Shown piece after piece: positions 6,020-51,529 of a stretch of DNA of 64,000 bases. The stretch spans positions 14,900 through 78,899 of the forward strand of contig NZ_CP019314.1 of the NCBI RefSeq assembly GCF_001969365.1, written 5' to 3'. The first letter of the stretch is position 1. The number at the start of each line of letters is the position of its first letter. This stretch comes from Tateyamaria omphalii (GTDB lineage Bacteria > Pseudomonadota > Alphaproteobacteria > Rhodobacterales > Rhodobacteraceae). The position numbers were made by a program, and so were the translations under genes. A model generated the notes under the pieces. The model was not told the origin of the DNA. It saw only the letters and a list, made by a program, of their open reading frames with translations, and ran no database searches.

Positions 6020-6226
6020 AACCATGTCTGCACGAGCGGCGCAATACCTGATAGAAAGACTAGGACAAAGCAGCGCGGCAGCTTGTGGCACCAGGATCAA
6101 CAACCGCCAGATGTAGATAAGTCTTGCACGAATCCCGCAAGTCAGCCAATAGTCACGGAAAAAGACGGTCAAACGGTGAAAAGCGTGACCGACAAACACA
6201 GGCAGGTGGCAGAGGAACCGGGGCAG

Positions 6227-7414
6227 ATGGACGGCACGCGCACGCAAAATGACCTCAATTCCGTCATTCGGCAACACTCCGAATGGCTGGCCACGCAATT
6301 GCACGCCCAACGCGAAAGCCTGTTCCCCCCCGATGCAGCGAAACAGATGCGCAAGTTCACCAGTGGTGAGGCCGCGACCCTGCTCGGCGTCGGCGACAGC
6401 TACCTGCGCAAACTGCATCTTGAGGGGCGCGGCCCCTCGCCCGAGGTTACATCGGGCAACCGCCGCCTGTATTCTGCGGCCGATATTCAGTCTCTGAGAC
6501 GCACGTTAGAGACGACCGCCCGCCGTCCCGGCGAATACCTGCCCGGCCGCCGCGAGGGTGACGAGATGCAGGTTATCGGCGTGATGAACTTCAAGGGCGG
6601 CTCGGGCAAGACCACCACTGCGGCCCACCTCTCCCAGCGCCTCGCGCTCAAGGGGTATCGTGTCCTCGCCATTGACCTCGACCCGCAGGCGTCTCTGTCA
6701 GCCCTGCACGGGGTCCAGCCCGAATATGATCTGCCAGAGGGCGGCACGCTCTATGACGCGATCCGGTACGAAGATCCCGCGCCCATCAGTTCGGTCATCC
6801 GCAAAACGTATATTCCCGGCCTTGATCTGATCCCCGGCAATCTCGAACTGATGGAATTCGAACACGACACCCCGCGCGCGCTTGCGACCGGGGCGGCGGG
6901 GCTGTTCTTTTTTCGGGTCAAACAGGCTCTGACACAAGTTGATTGCGACTATGACGTCGTGGTCATCGACTGCCCGCCGCAGCTTGGCTTTCTGACCATG
7001 TCGGCCCTGTCCGCGGCAACCGGCGTGCTGGTGACGATCCACCCCGAAATGCTCGACGTGATGTCGATGTCCCAATTCCTGCGCATGACCGCCGATCTGA
7101 TGGACGTGATTGCAGAAAGCGGCGCCGACATGAAACACGACTGGATGCGCTATCTGCTCACCCGTTACGAACCGGCTGATGCGCCGCAAAACCGTGTCGT
7201 GGCCTTCTTGCGGACGATGTATGGCGATCATGTGCTGAACGCGCCCATGCTGAAATCCACCGCCATCTCGGATGCGGGGCTGACGAAACAGACACTTTAC
7301 GAGGTCGAACGCTCCGCCTTCACCCGCTCCACCTATGACCGCGCAATGGAAAGCCTGAACGCGGTCAACGATGAAATATCGACCCTGATACAGGCAACCT
7401 GGGGGCGCACATGA
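6227..7414 (+). CDS. repA: plasmid partitioning ATPase RepA (ParA-type)
   Basis: The protein has 395 aa. I chose the ATG at 6227 because the family starts just before the DLNSVIRQHSEWLATQL helix and an AGAGGA site lies ten bases upstream. An N-terminal MerR-like helix-turn-helix (residues about 43-90, KFTSGEAATLLGVGDSYLRK) is followed by the ParA ATPase: deviant Walker A KGGSGKT at 123-129 and VIDCPPQLGF as Walker B. RepA binds ATP, moves plasmid copies with RepB/parS and represses the repABC promoter. It overlaps repB by four bases (ATGA). Confidence 0.96.
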   Translation: MDGTRTQNDLNSVIRQHSEWLATQLHAQRESLFPPDAAKQMRKFTSGEAATLLGVGDSYLRKLHLEGRGPSPEVTSGNRRLYSAADIQSLRRTLETTARRPGEYLPGRREGDEMQVIGVMNFKGGSGKTTTAAHLSQRLALKGYRVLAIDLDPQASLSALHGVQPEYDLPEGGTLYDAIRYEDPAPISSVIRKTYIPGLDLIPGNLELMEFEHDTPRALATGAAGLFFFRVKQALTQVDCDYDVVVIDCPPQLGFLTMSALSAATGVLVTIHPEMLDVMSMSQFLRMTADLMDVIAESGADMKHDWMRYLLTRYEPADAPQNRVVAFLRTMYGDHVLNAPMLKSTAISDAGLTKQTLYEVERSAFTRSTYDRAMESLNAVNDEISTLIQATWGRT

Positions 7415-8415
7415 GCGAAAATCGCAAGAAACGCCTGTCGATGCTTGACAGTCTGGCCGCGGCGCAGGCCCCTGCCCCGTCCAGTTCGATGATGACCACG
7501 AACCGCGCCTTGCGGTCCGCGCGGGACGCGGTCGATGCGCATCACGTGTGGGACCTGGACCCATGGGCCATCGACGATTTGCGACCCGAGGACCGGATGG
7601 AGGCGGGAGATCTCCACGATCTGCGCGACGCGATCGAAGCCAACGGCCAGACCGTGCCGATCCTTGTGCGTCGCAACCCCGAGGACGCCGACCGTTACCT
7701 TTTGGTCTACGGGCGACGTCGGCTCGAGGCGATCCGCCAGTCCGACAAGGTCGACAAGGTGCGCGCGCTTGTGGCCACGCTTGATGACCACGAGGCCGTG
7801 CGCGCCCAGATTTCTGAAAACATGGCGCGCCGCGACCTGACATTTATCGAAAAGGCCCTTTTTGCCCGCGCGCTGGTCGACGGCAGCTTTGGCACCCAGG
7901 CACAGGTGGCCGAGGTGTTGACGGTGAGCAAATCCGCCATCTCCATGGCCCTCGCTGTCGTCGATGTCGTCAGCGTCGATCTCGCCCGCGCCATCGGCCC
8001 CGCGCCCGGCGTCGGGCGCCCCCGCTGGGACACCCTTGCCCGCGCGATAGAAACAACCGGCGCAGATGTCAGCTACCTGATCCCCATTGCCCGCGACACC
8101 CATGACAAGGCCGCGCTCGACGCCGTCACCGACCCGATGGGCCCCTTGCACGAAGATCCGTCCATCACGGCATTCGAAGCCGTTTTGGCCTATTTAGAGA
8201 CGAAAAAGCCTGTGGTGTCGCAACCCAAGGTGCGCACAAGCGGGAAAAGCCGGACGGTCCACTCCGGCGACCGGCGTATCGGCACCATCAAGCGCATGTC
8301 ACAGGGCGTGCGTCTAGATGTGGATGCGGGCAATTTCGCGGACTGGCTCGAGCACAACGCCGACGCCGTCCTCAAGGAGCTTCACACGCGCTGGCAAACG
8401 CGCGGCGAAGACTAA
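7411..8415 (+). CDS. repB: plasmid partitioning protein RepB (ParB-type)
   Basis: The protein has 334 aa. The ParB nuclease-like N-domain includes GDLHDLRDAIEANGQTVPIL and the GRRRLEA motif (about residues 67-115). It is followed by a helix-turn-helix (QAQVAEVLTVSKSAISMALA, about 163-182) that would read the parS palindromes, and a C-terminal dimerisation part. RepB loads on parS and is the RepA partner. Its start overlaps repA, as is usual in repABC operons. The two likely target sites are at 9777-9836. Confidence 0.95.
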   Translation: MSENRKKRLSMLDSLAAAQAPAPSSSMMTTNRALRSARDAVDAHHVWDLDPWAIDDLRPEDRMEAGDLHDLRDAIEANGQTVPILVRRNPEDADRYLLVYGRRRLEAIRQSDKVDKVRALVATLDDHEAVRAQISENMARRDLTFIEKALFARALVDGSFGTQAQVAEVLTVSKSAISMALAVVDVVSVDLARAIGPAPGVGRPRWDTLARAIETTGADVSYLIPIARDTHDKAALDAVTDPMGPLHEDPSITAFEAVLAYLETKKPVVSQPKVRTSGKSRTVHSGDRRIGTIKRMSQGVRLDVDAGNFADWLEHNADAVLKELHTRWQTRGED

Positions 8416-8451
8416 GGCAGAGCAGTAACCAAAGGAGGCACGCACCAGAAA

Positions 8452-8550
8452 AGGCAAAAGAAAAGGTCCCGCAAAGCGATGGCGCCCCACGAGACCCTTG
8501 TGTTTAGCAGCTTCAAGGTACGATTTCGCGCCCTCCCCCGCAAGTCCCAA
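8452..8550 (-). ncRNA. candidate antisense ctRNA (incA-type) between repB and repC
   Basis: repABC plasmids encode a small counter-transcribed RNA on the opposite strand between repB and repC that limits RepC synthesis. On the minus strand here a strong intrinsic terminator is present: GGTCTCG (8490-8496) pairs with CGGGACC (8465-8471, one G-U pair) and is followed by TTTTCTTTT. The transcript therefore should end near 8455. The 5' end is uncertain; a weak TTGGGA/GAAATC pair around 8548-8520 would start it near 8515. Incompatibility and copy number would be set by this RNA. Confidence 0.6.
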
Positions 8551-8574
8551 GTGATTCGCGGAGCGGATTTTTTT
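8536..8574 (+). promoter_or_regulatory. S-element-like stem and T-run in the repC leader
   Basis: On the coding strand CCGC (8538-8541) can pair with GCGG (8558-8561), shortly followed by seven T residues at 8568-8574 and then the repC start. In characterised repABC plasmids, ctRNA binding lets the leader fold into such a terminator-like structure that blocks repC. The position and T-run fit; the stem is short, so the exact fold is inferred. Confidence 0.5.
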
Positions 8575-8586
8575 GTGCCTGCGTGA

Positions 8587-9774
8587 ATGATTTTCATGAC
8601 CTACGTTCCCATCACACCGTTTCGCGGGACGGTGAACGCCCTTGTATTGGCGCGCGAACATCTGGCCGGGCGGGCGAAAACCCTGCCCCGCGCCGACAAG
8701 TGGGAGGTGCTGCGCGAATTGGGCGTGGCCGGCCCGAAGCTGGGCGTCAGCGACCGACAATTGACCGTGCTTCAGGCCCTTCTCAGCTTCCACCCCGAAG
8801 TCGAACTGGGTGGAAGCGGGGATCGACCGGTTGTCTTCCCTTCCAACGCGTCGATCTGCGAACGGTTGAACGGCATGGCCTGCTCGACCATGCGGCGGCA
8901 TCTGGCGGGTCTGGTGCAGGCTGGTCTTATCATCCGGCGCGACAGCCCCAACGGCAAACGCTATTCCAGTCGGTCAGGTGGCGCCTTCGGCTTCGACCTC
9001 TCCCCCCTCGCCCTCCGCTTCGCCGAGATTTGTGCCGTGGCAGAGGATGTACGGGCCGAGCGGGACCGCCTCAAGCGCCTCCGCCAGACCGTCAGCCTGA
9101 TGCGCCGCGATCTGGCCGCGCTTGCCGCCTACGGTGCTGATACACAGCCTGACCTCGGGATCTGGGACGCATTCTCCGACCTCGCGATCCTGACCGCCCG
9201 CGACTTGCGTCGGCGCCTCGACGAGGATGATTTGGGACGGCTGGAATGCGTGCTCAATGACGCGTTGGACAAAGCCCGTTCCGTGTTCGAAGCAGAAGAT
9301 ATGATCACCAAAGATGCTGAGAATGAGCAGCACCATCATAATTCAAAGACAGACATATCTGTACTTGAACCAAGCTGTGGACGCGTACCGGATGAAACGG
9401 ATCCGACCTTGGACGATACTTCGAAACCTGCGACACGTGAGGACGCCCAGCCAAACATCCCGCTGGCTTTGGTGTTGTCGGTTTGTGCGGAGATTGCGGT
9501 CTACAGCGATCGACCAATCAGGCATTGGCACGACCTTGTCAGGGCGGCGGATATGGTGCGGCCGATGATGGGTATTCAGCCCTCAGCATGGGGGGAAGCT
9601 GTGAAGGCGATGGGGCCTGAGCAGGCGGCAGTCACAGTGGCGGCGATGCTGGAGAGGTTTGACCAGATCAAGTCGCCCGGAGGATATCTGAGGCACCTGG
9701 CGCGGCAAGCCATGGCGGGGAAATTCTCTTGTGCGCCGATGGTGATGGCGTTGACGCGGAGGGAGGCGGCTTGA
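8587..9774 (+). CDS. repC: plasmid replication initiator RepC
   Basis: The protein has 395 aa if the ATG at 8587 is used; the ATG at 8596 (MTYVPITPFRG) is an equally good start by comparison with other RepC proteins. The N-terminal initiator domain contains the winged-helix region (ICERLNGMACSTMRRHLAGLVQAGLI, split here as residues about 95-120), and a variable linker (about 235-290) leads to the RP-C C-terminal domain ending GGYLRHLARQAMAGKF. RepC opens the origin, which in this plasmid class lies inside repC itself. It follows repB after 171 bases that hold the ctRNA, and the parS sites start three bases after its stop. Confidence 0.95.
   Translation: MIFMTYVPITPFRGTVNALVLAREHLAGRAKTLPRADKWEVLRELGVAGPKLGVSDRQLTVLQALLSFHPEVELGGSGDRPVVFPSNASICERLNGMACSTMRRHLAGLVQAGLIIRRDSPNGKRYSSRSGGAFGFDLSPLALRFAEICAVAEDVRAERDRLKRLRQTVSLMRRDLAALAAYGADTQPDLGIWDAFSDLAILTARDLRRRLDEDDLGRLECVLNDALDKARSVFEAEDMITKDAENEQHHHNSKTDISVLEPSCGRVPDETDPTLDDTSKPATREDAQPNIPLALVLSVCAEIAVYSDRPIRHWHDLVRAADMVRPMMGIQPSAWGEAVKAMGPEQAAVTVAAMLERFDQIKSPGGYLRHLARQAMAGKFSCAPMVMALTRREAA
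9290..9370. other. AT-rich segment inside repC, probable oriV
   Basis: This stretch (around gatatgatcaccaaagatg to gacagacatatctgtac) is visibly richer in A and T than the rest of repC and encodes the linker between its two domains. In studied repABC plasmids the replication origin maps within repC, often at an AT-rich part. The placement is by analogy, with no iterons seen. Confidence 0.4.
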
Positions 9775-14685: not shown

Positions 14686-15047
14686 TTCGTGTCTTCTGTG
14701 CGCGGCTCAGCGATCCGCATGTCGTCGGAGTACAGCGTGCCCAGCGTGGAGTAGGCGCGAAACATCAGCACGAGGGCAAAGGCAAAGAGGCCGAAGCCGA
14801 TCACGATGGCCGTCAGCACCAGCGCCTGGGGCAGCGCATTGGCGACATCGCCCACGGGTCCTTCGGCACCTTCGGCGATCAGGGGCGGTGCGCCGGAGGT
14901 GAGCCGCCCTGACACGAAAATGATCAGGTTCGCCGCGTTCGAGATCAGCACCAGCCCGAAGATGAACCGCAGCACGTTGCGCGCAAGCATCAGGTAGACC
15001 GAGGTGGCAACCAGCACGCCGATGGTTATGGCAAGGAGCGCCTCCAT
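14682..15047 (-). CDS. mnhC: Na+/H+ antiporter subunit C (MnhC/MrpC), NuoK-like
   Basis: The protein has 121 aa and three helices, homologous to NuoK of complex I: RNVLRFIFGLVLISNAANL and ALVLTAIVIGFGLFAFAL are the recognisable helices. It starts directly after the mnhB stop (15048) and overlaps mnhD by four bases. Confidence 0.93.
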   Translation of the reverse strand: MEALLAITIGVLVATSVYLMLARNVLRFIFGLVLISNAANLIIFVSGRLTSGAPPLIAEGAEGPVGDVANALPQALVLTAIVIGFGLFAFALVLMFRAYSTLGTLYSDDMRIAEPRTEDTK

Positions 15048-47260: not shown

Positions 47261-48292
47261 CTATTTCGTGCTGTCGCGGAAGGTCAAATTGACCGGCACC
47301 GGGACCAATGTGCGACTCACCGGATTGTCCTCGGCAAGCAGCTTGCCGATCAGTTGCCCAGTCTCTCGTCCGATGGTTTTGGGGTCCACTGAAACGGTGC
47401 TGATCGTGGGCGTGGCAAAGCGCGACACCTCGAAATCGCCGAAACCCGCGATGCCGATGTCGCCGGGCACGGATTTGCCCAGTTTCAGCATCACCGACAG
47501 CACGCCAAACGCCGGCGCATCAGACACACAGAAAACGCAATCGGTGTCGGGAAAGTCGGTAAGCAGGCGGGTGGCTGCGGCGGCGCCTTCTTCAATCGAC
47601 AGGGGCGGTTTGCCGATCTTGAGAGCGCGGTCAGTCGGCAGGCCCGCCTCCGCCATCGCATCCAGATACCCCTTGCGCCGCGCGGCGCCACGGGTCCAGT
47701 CATCATCCGCCTCGCCCACGAATGCGATCTTTCGATAGCCACGGTCGATTAGGGCGCGTGTCATGTCCGCGGCCGCCTTCCGGTTGGAAAAGCCGATGGT
47801 GTGGCCGATAGGATTATCGGGCCGCTCCCAAAGCTCGATCACAGGGATATGCGCGTCGCTCAGCAGCGCGATGGTCCGGTCCGAATGCCCGTCGTAGGAC
47901 AGCACAATCGCCTCGGGTCGGCGCTTCAGCATATCCTCGACCAACTGCTCCTCGCGGTCAGGCGAATAGTCGGTGTGGCCCAGCAGGATCTGCTGCCCGA
48001 TCCCTTCAAGTTCTTCGGTCAGCGCCTGCACGGTTTCGGCAAAGTGCAGGTTGTTGAGGGACGGGACCAGTACGGCCACAAAACCCGACCGCTTTGTCGT
48101 CAGACTGCCCGCCATTTGGTCCGGGACATAGTTCATCTCGCGCACGACCTTGAGGATGCGGTCGCGTGTGTTCTTTGAAATTGGGCTGTCCTTCTTCAGT
48201 GCGCGGCTCACTGTCATGCGAGAAACACCGGCTGCGCGGGCCACGTCACGCATGGTGACAGGGCCAGAAGACTTTGGTGGCGTGTGGGACAT
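47261..48292 (-). CDS. LacI-family regulator of the CUT1 sugar importer operon
   Basis: The protein has 343 aa from ATG 48292; a TTG at 48328 and GTG at 48316 would add up to 12 residues. The helix-turn-helix is TMRDVARAAGVSRMTVSRAL, with the hinge following, then a periplasmic-binding-type effector domain (SGFVAVLVPSLNNLHFAET onward). Its gene precedes the importer on the same strand and the paired operators lie between. It probably represses the importer and is released by an imported sugar. It is close in sequence style to the LacI at 58875. Confidence 0.9.
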   Translation of the reverse strand: MSHTPPKSSGPVTMRDVARAAGVSRMTVSRALKKDSPISKNTRDRILKVVREMNYVPDQMAGSLTTKRSGFVAVLVPSLNNLHFAETVQALTEELEGIGQQILLGHTDYSPDREEQLVEDMLKRRPEAIVLSYDGHSDRTIALLSDAHIPVIELWERPDNPIGHTIGFSNRKAAADMTRALIDRGYRKIAFVGEADDDWTRGAARRKGYLDAMAEAGLPTDRALKIGKPPLSIEEGAAAATRLLTDFPDTDCVFCVSDAPAFGVLSVMLKLGKSVPGDIGIAGFGDFEVSRFATPTISTVSVDPKTIGRETGQLIGKLLAEDNPVSRTLVPVPVNLTFRDSTK

Positions 48293-48416
48293 GCGCTGCA
48301 GGGTGTGCCCGGTCACATCGCGCGTCAAGATGCAAATTCCGGGTTACTCGGGCTGTGTTGCATGTCCCGGCACAACCGATCCGAAACACCCGCAGTTTCC
48401 AAAAATTTGGCGCATT

Positions 48417-48445
48417 TTGGATTTTGCAATAATCTGTGGTAGAAT
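48417..48445 (+). promoter_or_regulatory. sigma70-type promoter TTGGAT-17-TAGAAT
   Basis: A -35 (48417-48422) and -10 (48440-48445) pair with a 17-base spacer lies about 115 bases upstream of the endopeptidase-muramidase gene. The region is AT-rich compared with the rest of the window. Predicted from sequence only. Confidence 0.5.
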
Positions 48446-48559
48446 TGTTGTTCAAACATACGCGCCCGTCTTTTGTGGCAGGCGTAACAAAGTCATTGAA
48501 AAGCCAAAGCTACGAAACAAAAACCCAGATTTTTCAAACCAATTTTATAAGGTGCATAC

Positions 48560-50236
48560 ATGTCAGGGCTTACAAAACGGGACGGCGATATCTCGCGCCT
48601 TCATCCTGCCATCCGCGACAGTGTCGTGGCCATTCAGAAAAAGCTGAACAGTGAAAACATCCCCTTCCAGGTGTTTGAGGCGTTTCGTACGCCGCACAGG
48701 CAAGCCAACCTCTACGCCAAAGGCCGGACAAAGCCGGGAAACAAGGTCACTTGGGTCGGGCCTTGGGGTTCGATTCACCAATACGGTTTGGCCGTGGACT
48801 TTGTTTTGTTCGAAAACGGCAATTGGAGTTGGGATGACAGCGGCGCCAAGGCCAAGTGGTGGAGCCGCATGCATGAGGTAGCGGCCGACCACAATATGAC
48901 CCCGCTTTACAACAAAAAGAAGCAGCTGATCGAAAAGCCTCACGTCCAGTTGATGGGTGTCACATCATCGGAATTGCGCAATGGCATTTATCCGGATGGT
49001 GGTGATGCGATATGGGCGGAACACCTTGCTGATCTTATCGACAGTTGGGACGGCGGCGCGACCCCGGCGAAGCCTTCCCATGCGCCAGAAAAGCCAGCTC
49101 TTGATCCAGCGGTTGTTGCCGATATTGAACCCGATGCAACACTGCCGGCTCCGACGGTCGCGCTTGACACCGCCGACACAGATGCCCGTTTTCAGAAGCT
49201 GCACAGCTTTATCAAATGGGCGGAGGGGGGATTTGCCAACCACCCCGACGATACTGGCGGTGCAACCAACTTCGGTATCACGCGCGAAACGCTTGAAACC
49301 TGGCGCGGGAGGCCCGTCACCGAAGATGAGGTGCGCGCCTTGACCCGAGAAGAGGCGGATCAGATCCTGCGCACCAATTACTATGCGCGATGTCGGTGCG
49401 GTGAAATGCCCGATCGGACCGCGATGGTTGTTTACAACACTGCAGTGCTGTCCGGCACCGGCAAGGCGATCAAGACCCTGCAAGAGGCATTCAATGCCAT
49501 GGGTATGACGGTGAATGGGGGCCCGCTCAAGGTGGATGGGATCATTGGGCGCAACACCATCGCCGCGGCGCGCGAGACTGACGCGGAGGCGATGTCCGAG
49601 ATCTATGTTGATCTCTACGAAGCCTATCTGAAGACCCGCCATAACTTTGATACCTTCGGAAACGGTTGGATGAACCGGACCGCAAAACTGCGTGAGTTTT
49701 TGACGACATTGCCAAAGGGGGCGGGCAAGCGCCCGACGACTGTCATGAAAGTATCTAACAAACCTTTGGGCCTGGACCTGGACGCAGATGATCTGGTGTC
49801 GCTGATTGCCGCCGTTTCGACCGGAGGTAAAAGTGCCGCTGCCAAATTGGTGTTATCCCGCATCATTCAAAAGAAGGTGGCGGAGGCAGATGATGACACT
49901 GCGGCCGAAAGTATTCTGAAGGATGTTGTGGAACAGAAACTTGACGCGCTCGAACCGGAAAAGCCAGCGCTCACGCCAGTGAATGCAGCGCTTGGGGAGA
50001 CCGTTGGCAAGCTGTTGAACGGAAAGAAATCCGTCATCGGGATCGTTGGCCTCGTTCTCACCTCGGTCATCCCGGCCGTCTTCCCTGAAGGCGGCGGCGT
50101 CATCGACCCGACGTTTGTGCAGCAACTTAAAGCGAACCCGGATATCCAGACAATTCTGTTCACCGTGCTGAGCATTTTTACGGGGTGGGGCTTCCTCGGG
50201 AAAATTGACAAGGCCATTCGCGACGCACGGACCTAA
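48560..50236 (+). CDS. bifunctional M15 endopeptidase / GH108 muramidase with membrane tail (endolysin-like)
   Basis: The protein has 558 aa. Residues 1-140 form an M15 metallopeptidase: SIHQYGLAVD (zinc His73, Asp80) and EKPHVQL (Glu125, His128). Residues about 208-305 form a GH108-type muramidase with catalytic Glu222 in KWAEGGFANHPDDTGGATNF. A PG_binding_3 domain follows (LKVDGIIGRNTI to GNGWMNRTAKL, about 306-380). After a linker, two hydrophobic helices (about 491-508 and 529-547) end the protein. No signal peptide is present. AAGGTG precedes the ATG and a strong terminator follows the stop, so it is a single-gene unit. No phage structural genes are near. The tail resembles a holin more than a wall anchor, but that is inference. 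Confidence 0.88.
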   Translation: MSGLTKRDGDISRLHPAIRDSVVAIQKKLNSENIPFQVFEAFRTPHRQANLYAKGRTKPGNKVTWVGPWGSIHQYGLAVDFVLFENGNWSWDDSGAKAKWWSRMHEVAADHNMTPLYNKKKQLIEKPHVQLMGVTSSELRNGIYPDGGDAIWAEHLADLIDSWDGGATPAKPSHAPEKPALDPAVVADIEPDATLPAPTVALDTADTDARFQKLHSFIKWAEGGFANHPDDTGGATNFGITRETLETWRGRPVTEDEVRALTREEADQILRTNYYARCRCGEMPDRTAMVVYNTAVLSGTGKAIKTLQEAFNAMGMTVNGGPLKVDGIIGRNTIAAARETDAEAMSEIYVDLYEAYLKTRHNFDTFGNGWMNRTAKLREFLTTLPKGAGKRPTTVMKVSNKPLGLDLDADDLVSLIAAVSTGGKSAAAKLVLSRIIQKKVAEADDDTAAESILKDVVEQKLDALEPEKPALTPVNAALGETVGKLLNGKKSVIGIVGLVLTSVIPAVFPEGGGVIDPTFVQQLKANPDIQTILFTVLSIFTGWGFLGKIDKAIRDART

Positions 50237-50256
50237 ACCTTGACCAAACATACCAA

Positions 50257-50293
50257 TGTGCCCTCGGCCAATTTGGGCCGAGGGCACATTTTT
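50257..50293 (+). terminator. strong intrinsic terminator
   Basis: A perfect 13-bp stem (TGTGCCCTCGGCC at 50257-50269 with GGCCGAGGGCACA at 50276-50288) is followed by TTTTT. It ends the endolysin-like gene and may also slow transcription from the convergent sugar importer operon. Confidence 0.9.
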
Positions 50294-50306: not shown

Positions 50307-51455
50307 TTAACGATCCAGCGCACCCACGCCCGAGAAGCGGAACGCTTCCTGTTCCAATGCGTCGATTTCCTCGGCGCTCATCTGATCATGAGCGACGGTG
50401 ATCCGGCCCAGGAAGACAAAGGGCAACTTGTCGGCGCGCCCTTCGAGGTCTGCCTTAATCGCTTCGGCGGTGGCAGCACCCACGTCATCCCCCATACGCA
50501 TCGGTGTGGCGTCCAGCTCACCACGGCGGATGGCGTCCAGTTCCAGGCCCGTGCCGCCCCACCCGGTCGAGAAAATCTCTTTCTCCTTGCCCACAGACAC
50601 CTGTGCCTCGACCGAGCCCATGGCCATTGCAGTGTTGGCGTTGTGGATGATCGTGGCTTCGGGGTAAGATTGCAGGATGAGCGATGTGCCGGCAAAGCCG
50701 CCCTCGCGCTGATACTCACCGTAATGTTCATAGACGGTGGTCCAGCCCGCTTTGGTTTCCACACAGTTCTTGAAATCACCGGAACGTTGATTGTCGGTGA
50801 TACCCGGAATGCCCCTGTTCATCGCCATAGTCACGCCTTCGCCCAAGCGGCCAATCATGTAGTCGCACATGGTCAAGGCACCGGCAGCCGATGAAAAGTC
50901 GAACCAGGCGGCAGGCTGATGCTCAAGTTCCTTCAGCGGTGTATGGAACGCCCAGACATAGGTGGTCAGGTCGTCTGTTTCGGCAGCAAGTTTCGAGATA
51001 TTGTCGGCCTGAATCGCCAGTTCCGACGGGCCAAAGATCACGTAGTCGTAGATGTCTTTATCCAGAACGACCTGATTGGCATAGGTTGTTTGAAGCGAAT
51101 GCTCAATCTGGCGAGAGGCAAACTCGGTGGTTTCGTACTGCAACCCCAATTCGTCCAGCCGCTTCGTCATCGCCAGATAATTGCGCGCCCAAAAGTCCGA
51201 GGTATCCGACGACGGATAGATCAGGGCGATCTGGATCGGCGCATCCTGCGTGCCAGTGAATGTCACCGCCTCTGCGCCAACAGCGGCTTGCATGGCCTCC
51301 AGCTTACCTTCGGCGTTCACCTCGTCGGGCACCCAATAGTCACGGTCAGCGATATCGGGCAATTCCTTTAGCGGTAGTGTGGCATGGCCATCCGCCAACG
51401 CAGCTGTGCCCAACGCAAACGACGCGACCAATGCTGTTGTAGTCATAAATTTCAT
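50307..51455 (-). CDS. ABC importer periplasmic binding protein (LuxP/TorT/RbsB-like)
   Basis: The protein has 382 aa from ATG 51455 with GGGAGG upstream. A signal peptide (ending ALADG) is followed by a class I sugar-binding fold: IQIALIYPSSDTSDFWARNY and QVVLDKDIYDYVIFGPSEL. An extra N-terminal segment (about 27-70) precedes the fold, as in LuxP/TorT-type proteins. It is the last gene of the CUT2 double operon. The substrate is unknown. Confidence 0.85.
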   Translation of the reverse strand: MKFMTTTALVASFALGTAALADGHATLPLKELPDIADRDYWVPDEVNAEGKLEAMQAAVGAEAVTFTGTQDAPIQIALIYPSSDTSDFWARNYLAMTKRLDELGLQYETTEFASRQIEHSLQTTYANQVVLDKDIYDYVIFGPSELAIQADNISKLAAETDDLTTYVWAFHTPLKELEHQPAAWFDFSSAAGALTMCDYMIGRLGEGVTMAMNRGIPGITDNQRSGDFKNCVETKAGWTTVYEHYGEYQREGGFAGTSLILQSYPEATIIHNANTAMAMGSVEAQVSVGKEKEIFSTGWGGTGLELDAIRRGELDATPMRMGDDVGAATAEAIKADLEGRADKLPFVFLGRITVAHDQMSAEEIDALEQEAFRFSGVGALDR

Positions 51456-51490
51456 AAGGTTTCCTCCCGTTTGGAAATGTGTGTGTTTCT

Positions 51491-51529
51491 CGGGGTGGCA
51501 CTCTCCTCCGGTCACCCCGCGACGCACCC
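51491..51529 (-). terminator. stem-loop between CUT2 permease and binding protein
   Basis: CGGGGTG (51523-51529 on the minus strand) pairs with CACCCCG (51491-51497) across a 25-base loop. There is no T-run, so mRNA processing or stabilisation is more likely than termination. Confidence 0.4.

Follow-up and report, generated by a model that had tools for sequence, protein, structure and literature searches.

A predicted single-chain lysin joining an M15 peptidase, a GH108 muramidase and a C-terminal two-helix hairpin on a Tateyamaria plasmid

A natural fusion of a holin with an endolysin, found in six Clostridium sporogenes genomes, is described in the available part of PMC9527704, where it is argued that the fusion flips in a single transport event without a large hole. 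The accessible part of PMC13236601 gives the classical holin-endolysin route for R. capsulatus GTA lysis, and LypABC for Caulobacter. The gene described here resembles the C. sporogenes protein, as far as the available part of PMC9527704 describes it, in having a membrane part and a wall enzyme in one chain, a likeness of description and not of sequence. The two differ in build: the clostridial protein starts with a TpeE-family holin of one short helix, whereas the present lysin has two enzymes first and a two-helix hairpin last, and comes from a Gram-negative marine genus. Holin-endolysin fusions are already known, and what is new here is the reversed order and the presence of two enzymes. 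Among the literature matches listed, drawn mostly from outside the subscription journals and judged by titles and the start of abstracts, no description of an M15-GH108-membrane chain was found. An earlier note on this DNA had pointed out that phages usually split peptidase, muramidase and holin into separate proteins; this may be true, but the fusion in PMC9527704, on the evidence of its accessible part, and the chains of five other family genomes discussed below do join such parts. We propose, with a confidence that we would call about even, that the lysin is a moron-type, phage-derived single-chain endolysin with a holin-like hairpin, and a predicted cell-lysis gene.

The window, the whole stretch of 64,000 bases that was analysed, runs from base 14900 to the end, base 78899, of its contig, which is one of 8 in a 4.3-Mb genome. 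The placing of the gene on a plasmid holds, as the contig carries RepA/RepB/RepC-type replication and partition genes (6083..9774, + strand; identified with Pfam, with the RepB family under its cut-off and ParB_N above). The lysin gene (48560..50236, + strand) encodes 558 aa from an ATG start, and its delimitation relies on the ORF, Pfam, selection and orthologues. The four parts that had been read in it were recovered in the same order: an M15/VanY-type peptidase domain (48596..48928, + strand, aa 13-123; Pfam 33.9 bits, cut-off 25), a GH108 N-acetylmuramidase domain (49217..49456, + strand, aa 220-299; Glyco_hydro_108, 84.2 bits, cut-off 21.2), a PG_binding_3 domain (49466..49678, + strand, aa 303-373; 24.2 bits, slightly under the cut-off of 24.6) and the C-terminal two-helix hairpin. 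The zinc residues His73 and Asp80 lie within the Pfam match to M15, with Glu125 and the third zinc residue, His128, immediately beyond its end, and the GH108 catalytic residue Glu222 is present. All five are as previously read and are invariant in 7/7 aligned full-length proteins, own copy counted. The peptidoglycan-cleaving catalytic domains are therefore predicted to be complete, as befits a modular endolysin. In line with this, six of the eight PHROG matches were to endolysin families, the top one being phrog_315 (E 2e-38). The match to NCBIfam NF040573 (holin-associated N-acetylmuramidase) reached 84.9 bits, under the curated cut-off of 240 bits. Hydropathy in the first 78 aa did not exceed 0.23, so neither a signal peptide or hydrophobic N-terminus nor the N-terminal signal-arrest-release helix of SAR endolysins was detected there.

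For the GH108 part the closest solved structure, by sequence and fold, was Brucella SagA (7dnp, E 4e-37), followed by NMB1012, Sen1395 (1e-12) and TtsA (6v40, E 4e-12). For the M15 part, the closest chains by both sequence and fold were the endolysins Ply500 (2vo9), an L-alanyl-D-glutamate peptidase, and LysB4 (6akv), with ChiX (5opz) among the fold relatives (E 0.38 by sequence, 5e-3 by fold). SagA, TtsA, Ply500 and LysB4, which are among the nearest solved structures of single domains, have one catalytic region each, and none spans both or the tail. The closest GH108 structures are compatible with lysis as well as with secretion. A non-lytic or partly lytic release of proteins, akin to type 10 secretion, in which the chain would flip its enzymes out and open the wall for other proteins, would suit the kinship with TtsA and ChiX and the single-event transport argued for the natural fusion in the available part of PMC9527704. 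We nonetheless regard it as unlikely, given that reading the neighbourhoods by eye revealed neither a cargo gene nor a spanin next to the lysin, and that the neighbours differ from genus to genus. The separate holin, endolysin and cargo genes of a type 10 secretion system were likewise not found, the own neighbours being transport and regulator genes and those of the relatives having been read by eye. The DNA-transfer device that the earlier note had also considered is rejected: an inspection by eye of the ORFs on the 78.9-kb contig revealed neither a relaxase nor a type IV secretion gene.

The tail carries the membrane part. The first predicted membrane helix (50030..50086, + strand, aa 491-509) has a mean hydropathy of 2.13 and coincides with a low-confidence AF2 helix at 492-507; the second (50144..50200, + strand, aa 529-547) is marginal at 1.53, with a low-confidence AF2 helix at 527-541. 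The two closing helices of the earlier reading thus reappear, and the next-highest stretch in the rest of the chain reaches only 0.89. Helix 2 carries the conserved FTGWGFLGKIDKAI, present in 6/6 sequences of the alignment and slightly different in one further copy (L067), and its hydropathy is marginal across the full-length proteins (1.2-1.5). In 7/9 full-length proteins the N flank of the hairpin is positive, the loop neutral or negative and the C flank positive, and these charges suggest a hairpin with both ends inside (N-in/C-in). The N flank is neutral in L071; in L027 the automatic rule picked a different first segment, and the hairpin placed by alignment gave +2, -1 and 0. Structure prediction, which had been suggested as a check, was informative for the enzymes and poor for the tail: the AF2 model of the full chain had a mean pLDDT of 55.6, with moderate values in the enzyme regions and values below 50 in 388-558, whereas the tail modelled alone (41.7) was too poor to use, and confidence in the tail was low, mostly <50, in both models.

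No family could be assigned to the tail. Among seven members, none matched any Pfam family, holin families included, and one matched a PHROG, an endolysin family at E 0.14, with no match to a holin family. It was not alignable with the GTA_holin_3TM protein of the same genome (hhalign probability 0.2%), and on this value we rejected a fused GTA holin as its origin. The term "holin-like" in the earlier note therefore agrees with hydropathy and charge, though not with any holin family, and we use it as a tentative description of shape.

Other chains in these bacteria combine similar parts differently. In five other family genomes (L036-L040), membrane helices, GH108 and PG_binding_3 also share one chain, but there the two helices precede a C-terminal GH108 domain, no M15 match is present and the GH108 domain belongs to a separate clade; the helices matched no Pfam holin family. 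In L036 and L040 an additional hydrophobic stretch occurs at the N-terminus. The chromosome of the own genome holds a GTA-type pair of a GH108 muramidase and a GTA_holin_3TM protein (L002:764-1968), and a GH108 match of this kind occurs in 19/20 genus genomes. That pair resembles the lysin in coupling a GH108 muramidase with a membrane partner, but it consists of two separate genes, its muramidase falls in another clade and its holin is the one that could not be aligned with the tail.

The GH108 tree was built from 49 of the 51 domains found, the fragments L006 and L034 being excluded. With a program warning of long branches attached, it placed the nine full-length lysin rows on one side of a branch (100/99), the 16 rows labelled GTA-type (holin partner checked for L002 only) on one side of a branch, and the five chains in which two membrane helices precede GH108 in a separate clade (97/95). 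The separate clade of the lysin and its transport-gene neighbours led us to reject membership in a Rhodobacterales GTA lysis pair.

Full-length relatives are rare. The search for the same domain order, which the earlier note had proposed, found copies in 4/20 genus genomes and 5/394 family genomes (own included in both), with differing neighbours. One of the four Tateyamaria copies is split across both ends of a 130-kb contig, as a circular replicon predicts, and RepC lies on the same contig as the lysin in three of the four. One of the five family copies is broken, with TAG and TAA inside; at most three candidates were scored per genome in that search, so further copies in a family genome could be missed. 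When 295 genomes were searched with a profile of the tail alone, these five family genomes again matched strongly, and two weak matches turned up elsewhere. At class level, an M15-profile search of 385 genomes (at most nine candidates scored in each) returned only the own copy at E 1e-20 or better among the candidates scored. A scan of GTDB contigs gave seven lysin loci in six organisms, and IMG/VR gave two, one of which we take to be the Puniceibacterium contig again; in plasmid and phage records no single place covered 80% of the chain. The G142 copy (L072:8457-10208), beside a trpB-like gene by eye, is cut by stop codons and decaying.

We next compared the own copy with two Tateyamaria orthologues (L023, L028) by NG86, bearing in mind that the resulting dN/dS values are rough because dS is near saturation. 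Over the full gene they came to 0.053 and 0.062, with 0.022 and 0.031 for the M15 region, 0.032 and 0.047 for the GH108 and PG_binding_3 region, 0.058 and 0.080 for the tail, 0.093 and 0.083 for the second linker and 0.102 for the first linker (L028; not computable for L023), as against 0.041-0.055 for the flanking genes. Enzymes and tail are under purifying selection, and within Tateyamaria the tail, with values between those of enzymes and linkers, looks less constrained than the enzymes. In comparisons with other genera (L024, L026) the tail is conserved about as well as the enzymes, at 73% and 60% identity against 59-71%, while both linkers fall to 31-36%.

In its own genome the lysin stands alone among transport and regulator genes identified with Pfam. 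A LacI-family regulator beside a sugar ABC operon (47261..48328, - strand; Pfam) and the periplasmic binding protein (SBP) of another ABC operon (50307..51527, - strand; Pfam) flank it and lie outside the device. No phage gene was found among the window ORFs read by eye, and a Pfam scan of 16 window ORFs besides the lysin gave no phage structural family. The neighbourhoods of the full-length relatives are unrelated and change with the genus: sugar transport operons surround the Tateyamaria copies, the Pelagimonas copy lies beside a ribonucleotide reductase gene and an HD-domain, dGTPase-like gene, and the MAG, G153, G273 and G142 copies have yet other neighbours by eye. Apart from the G412 and Puniceibacterium copies, no phage genes were recognised by eye beside the lysin, which is consistent with a stand-alone gene in most genomes and not with one always inside prophages. 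No tRNA gene marks an integration point in ten lysin loci.

The statement that no phage genes are present applies to the window but not to the G412 copy, which lies 304 bases downstream of a late phage operon with terminase, portal, head protease and tail protein genes (PHROGs). That operon also encodes a 119-aa protein, holin-like by eye, and ends in an M15_3 peptidase/endolysin. The position of the lysin copy directly behind these late genes supports a phage-derived lysin. However, the copy sits at the end of the viral contig and has a GC of 0.534 against 0.65 for the phage, and for these two reasons it may belong to the host DNA flanking the prophage, which weakens phage descent. The Puniceibacterium contig contains a prophage of the G412 kind, with the lysin past its integrase and transposase-like genes between; no 15-mer occurs in both of the 400-base ends of the contig. 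Within the late genes of the G412 prophage, on the opposite strand, lie two adjoining genes, one PIN-like and one AbrB-like, which look by eye like a toxin-antitoxin pair (L082:11628-12229).

Base composition was also informative. In the own genome (0/13 at or below), L028 (0/15) and G412 (0/4), all scored flanking ORFs have a higher GC3 than the lysin, whose GC3 is near the bottom in L023 (1/14), L024 (2/7), L026 (1/10) and L027 (1/6). The low GC3 in the own genome and G412, together with the stand-alone position in unrelated neighbourhoods, supports a moron-type gene. In L071 and L073, by contrast with these, GC3 fits the flanks (10/12 flanking ORFs at or below in each), which weakens phage descent. 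Such host-like composition in two relatives, and a stand-alone, well-conserved gene, could also mean a prophage leftover retained as an anchored wall-remodelling enzyme without lysis. This seems quite unlikely to us: the protein has no export signal, and the inside topology suggested above would keep the enzymes off the wall.

A match to the LacI-like flank gene at E 1e-100 or better occurs in 14/20 genus genomes. We compared the loci of eight of the ten LacI-bearing genus genomes without a lysin. The LacI-SBP pairing is kept in 5/8, and in the other three no SBP match lies within the fetched stretch. In G009 just 58 bases separate the two genes; in one lysin-lacking locus a 107-aa ORF that matches no Pfam family lies between them; and in three other Tateyamaria the lysin site is taken by a PF00905-fold ORF (L101:1997-2851; L098:6226-7110, - strand; L104:1829-2761; Pfam, 73-78 bits), presumably class D beta-lactamase-like to judge by its motifs. 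Since the contents between LacI and SBP vary in this way among genus genomes, the lysin spot appears to be a swap site. A patchy, single, intact gene at a swap site, on plasmid and host loci and under purifying selection, would suit a device for abortive infection or self-destruction made of one gene, whose product would lie dormant at the membrane until a phage depolarised it. Set against this are the lack of any PADLOC match, both for the own lysin and for L067, and the transport operons that neighbour the Tateyamaria copies, and we think it decidedly unlikely. A related speculation, which we hold to be just as improbable, is a host-owned single-gene self-lysis switch, parked by its hairpin, that would fire on depolarisation by phage or stress, burst the cell before the phage matures or release its contents to kin, and spread alone between genomes.

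The earlier note had credited the gene with its own promoter and terminator. A sigma-70 consensus scan found no promoter for the lysin gene, at variance with the first claim. A 26-base block (48422..48447, + strand; -138 to -113 from the ATG) is a candidate promoter that may accompany the lysin in Tateyamaria. It matches its consensus at 20-24/26 positions in the four lysin-bearing Tateyamaria, partly by construction, and the informative part is its absence from eight lysin-lacking relatives (<=15/26). Five lysin carriers of other origin gave 13-16/26, and random 310-base stretches of the window gave 10-17, apart from a single value of 24 that presumably comes from the block itself. As to the terminator, a 15-bp stem-loop lies between the convergent genes (50255..50290) and possibly acts in both directions, but a terminator scan of the region gave three sites against 3.0 in shuffles, no excess. 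No SOS or CtrA site is common to the ten lysin upstream regions, and the four Tateyamaria regions have none. L024 has one exact CtrA-type site, L024 and L027 have one-mismatch CtrA half sites, and L027 and L071 have one-mismatch LexA-type sites. Having found no common pattern, we rejected SOS or CtrA control, and its lack weakens the case for lysis.

Returning to the phage-derived single-chain endolysin that we favour, the protein, which lacks a signal peptide, would be synthesised in the cytosol, and its C-terminal hairpin would anchor it in the inner membrane with both ends inside, as the charges suggest. Once enough molecules had gathered, or the membrane was depolarised, the hairpins could open the membrane as a holin does; the tethered M15 peptidase and GH108 muramidase would then gain access to the wall, where they would cleave peptide stems and glycan strands, and the producing cell, or a subpopulation, would lyse. 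The case for lysis draws on two catalytic domains that are complete and invariant in their active-site residues, the endolysin PHROG matches, a C-terminal hairpin without a signal peptide and a tail conserved like the enzymes between genera. The tail without a holin family, its low-confidence AF2 models and the marginal helix 2 argue against it, and a suicide gene under purifying selection would need some benefit. Should the protein lyse cells alone, it would be a natural one-protein Gram-negative lysis system in which a single polypeptide makes the hole and cuts both glycan and peptide. One could then test directly whether a tethered endolysin can cross or flip through a holin-type lesion, a question raised in the accessible part of PMC9527704, and lysis genes would be shown to spread independently of their phage.

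A last group of proteins shares the M15 part. L030, on a Rhizobium beringeri plasmid, and L035 have a related M15 domain first (49-50% identical), a wall enzyme second and a hydrophobic C-terminus, but carry glucosaminidase and PG_binding_1 instead of GH108 and have a different tail. Three lysins adjoin lipase-like genes: L027, of the same architecture, a membrane protein that matches patatin weakly (L027:11899-14145; 18.6 bits, cut-off 27.7); L030, of the glucosaminidase type, a broken frame that is membrane-patatin-like by eye and whose first piece has no Pfam match (L030:3586-5792); and L070, also of the glucosaminidase type, a Tle1-like phospholipase (L070:7452-9329; 219.7 bits). These neighbours would fit an antagonistic effector acting on other cells, with a tail that inserts into the target membrane. 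We consider this very unlikely, as the Tateyamaria copy has no recognisable immunity gene next to it, the lysin has no secretion signal, and the membrane-patatin protein matched in none of ten genomes with such lysins, in a search run without a positive control. On that same count the membrane-patatin lipase was rejected as a conserved partner. No gene was named lysin in the five annotated records, among six of the eight records of plasmid homologues of this lipase, in which many genes are called "hypothetical". Beside the Rhizobium lysin lies a protein with a TIR-like N-terminus and a membrane helix, by eye, and a WD40 propeller by Pfam (L030:8507-11506, - strand). M15 proteins, recognised by eye, also occur in two similar loci of G018 (L074:2366-10530; L075:9111-15113), accompanied by a protein that resembles a regulator, one with a glycine-histidine repeat (HGGHGG) and one of about 700 aa (by eye), and one of the two M15 proteins has an SLT domain as well.
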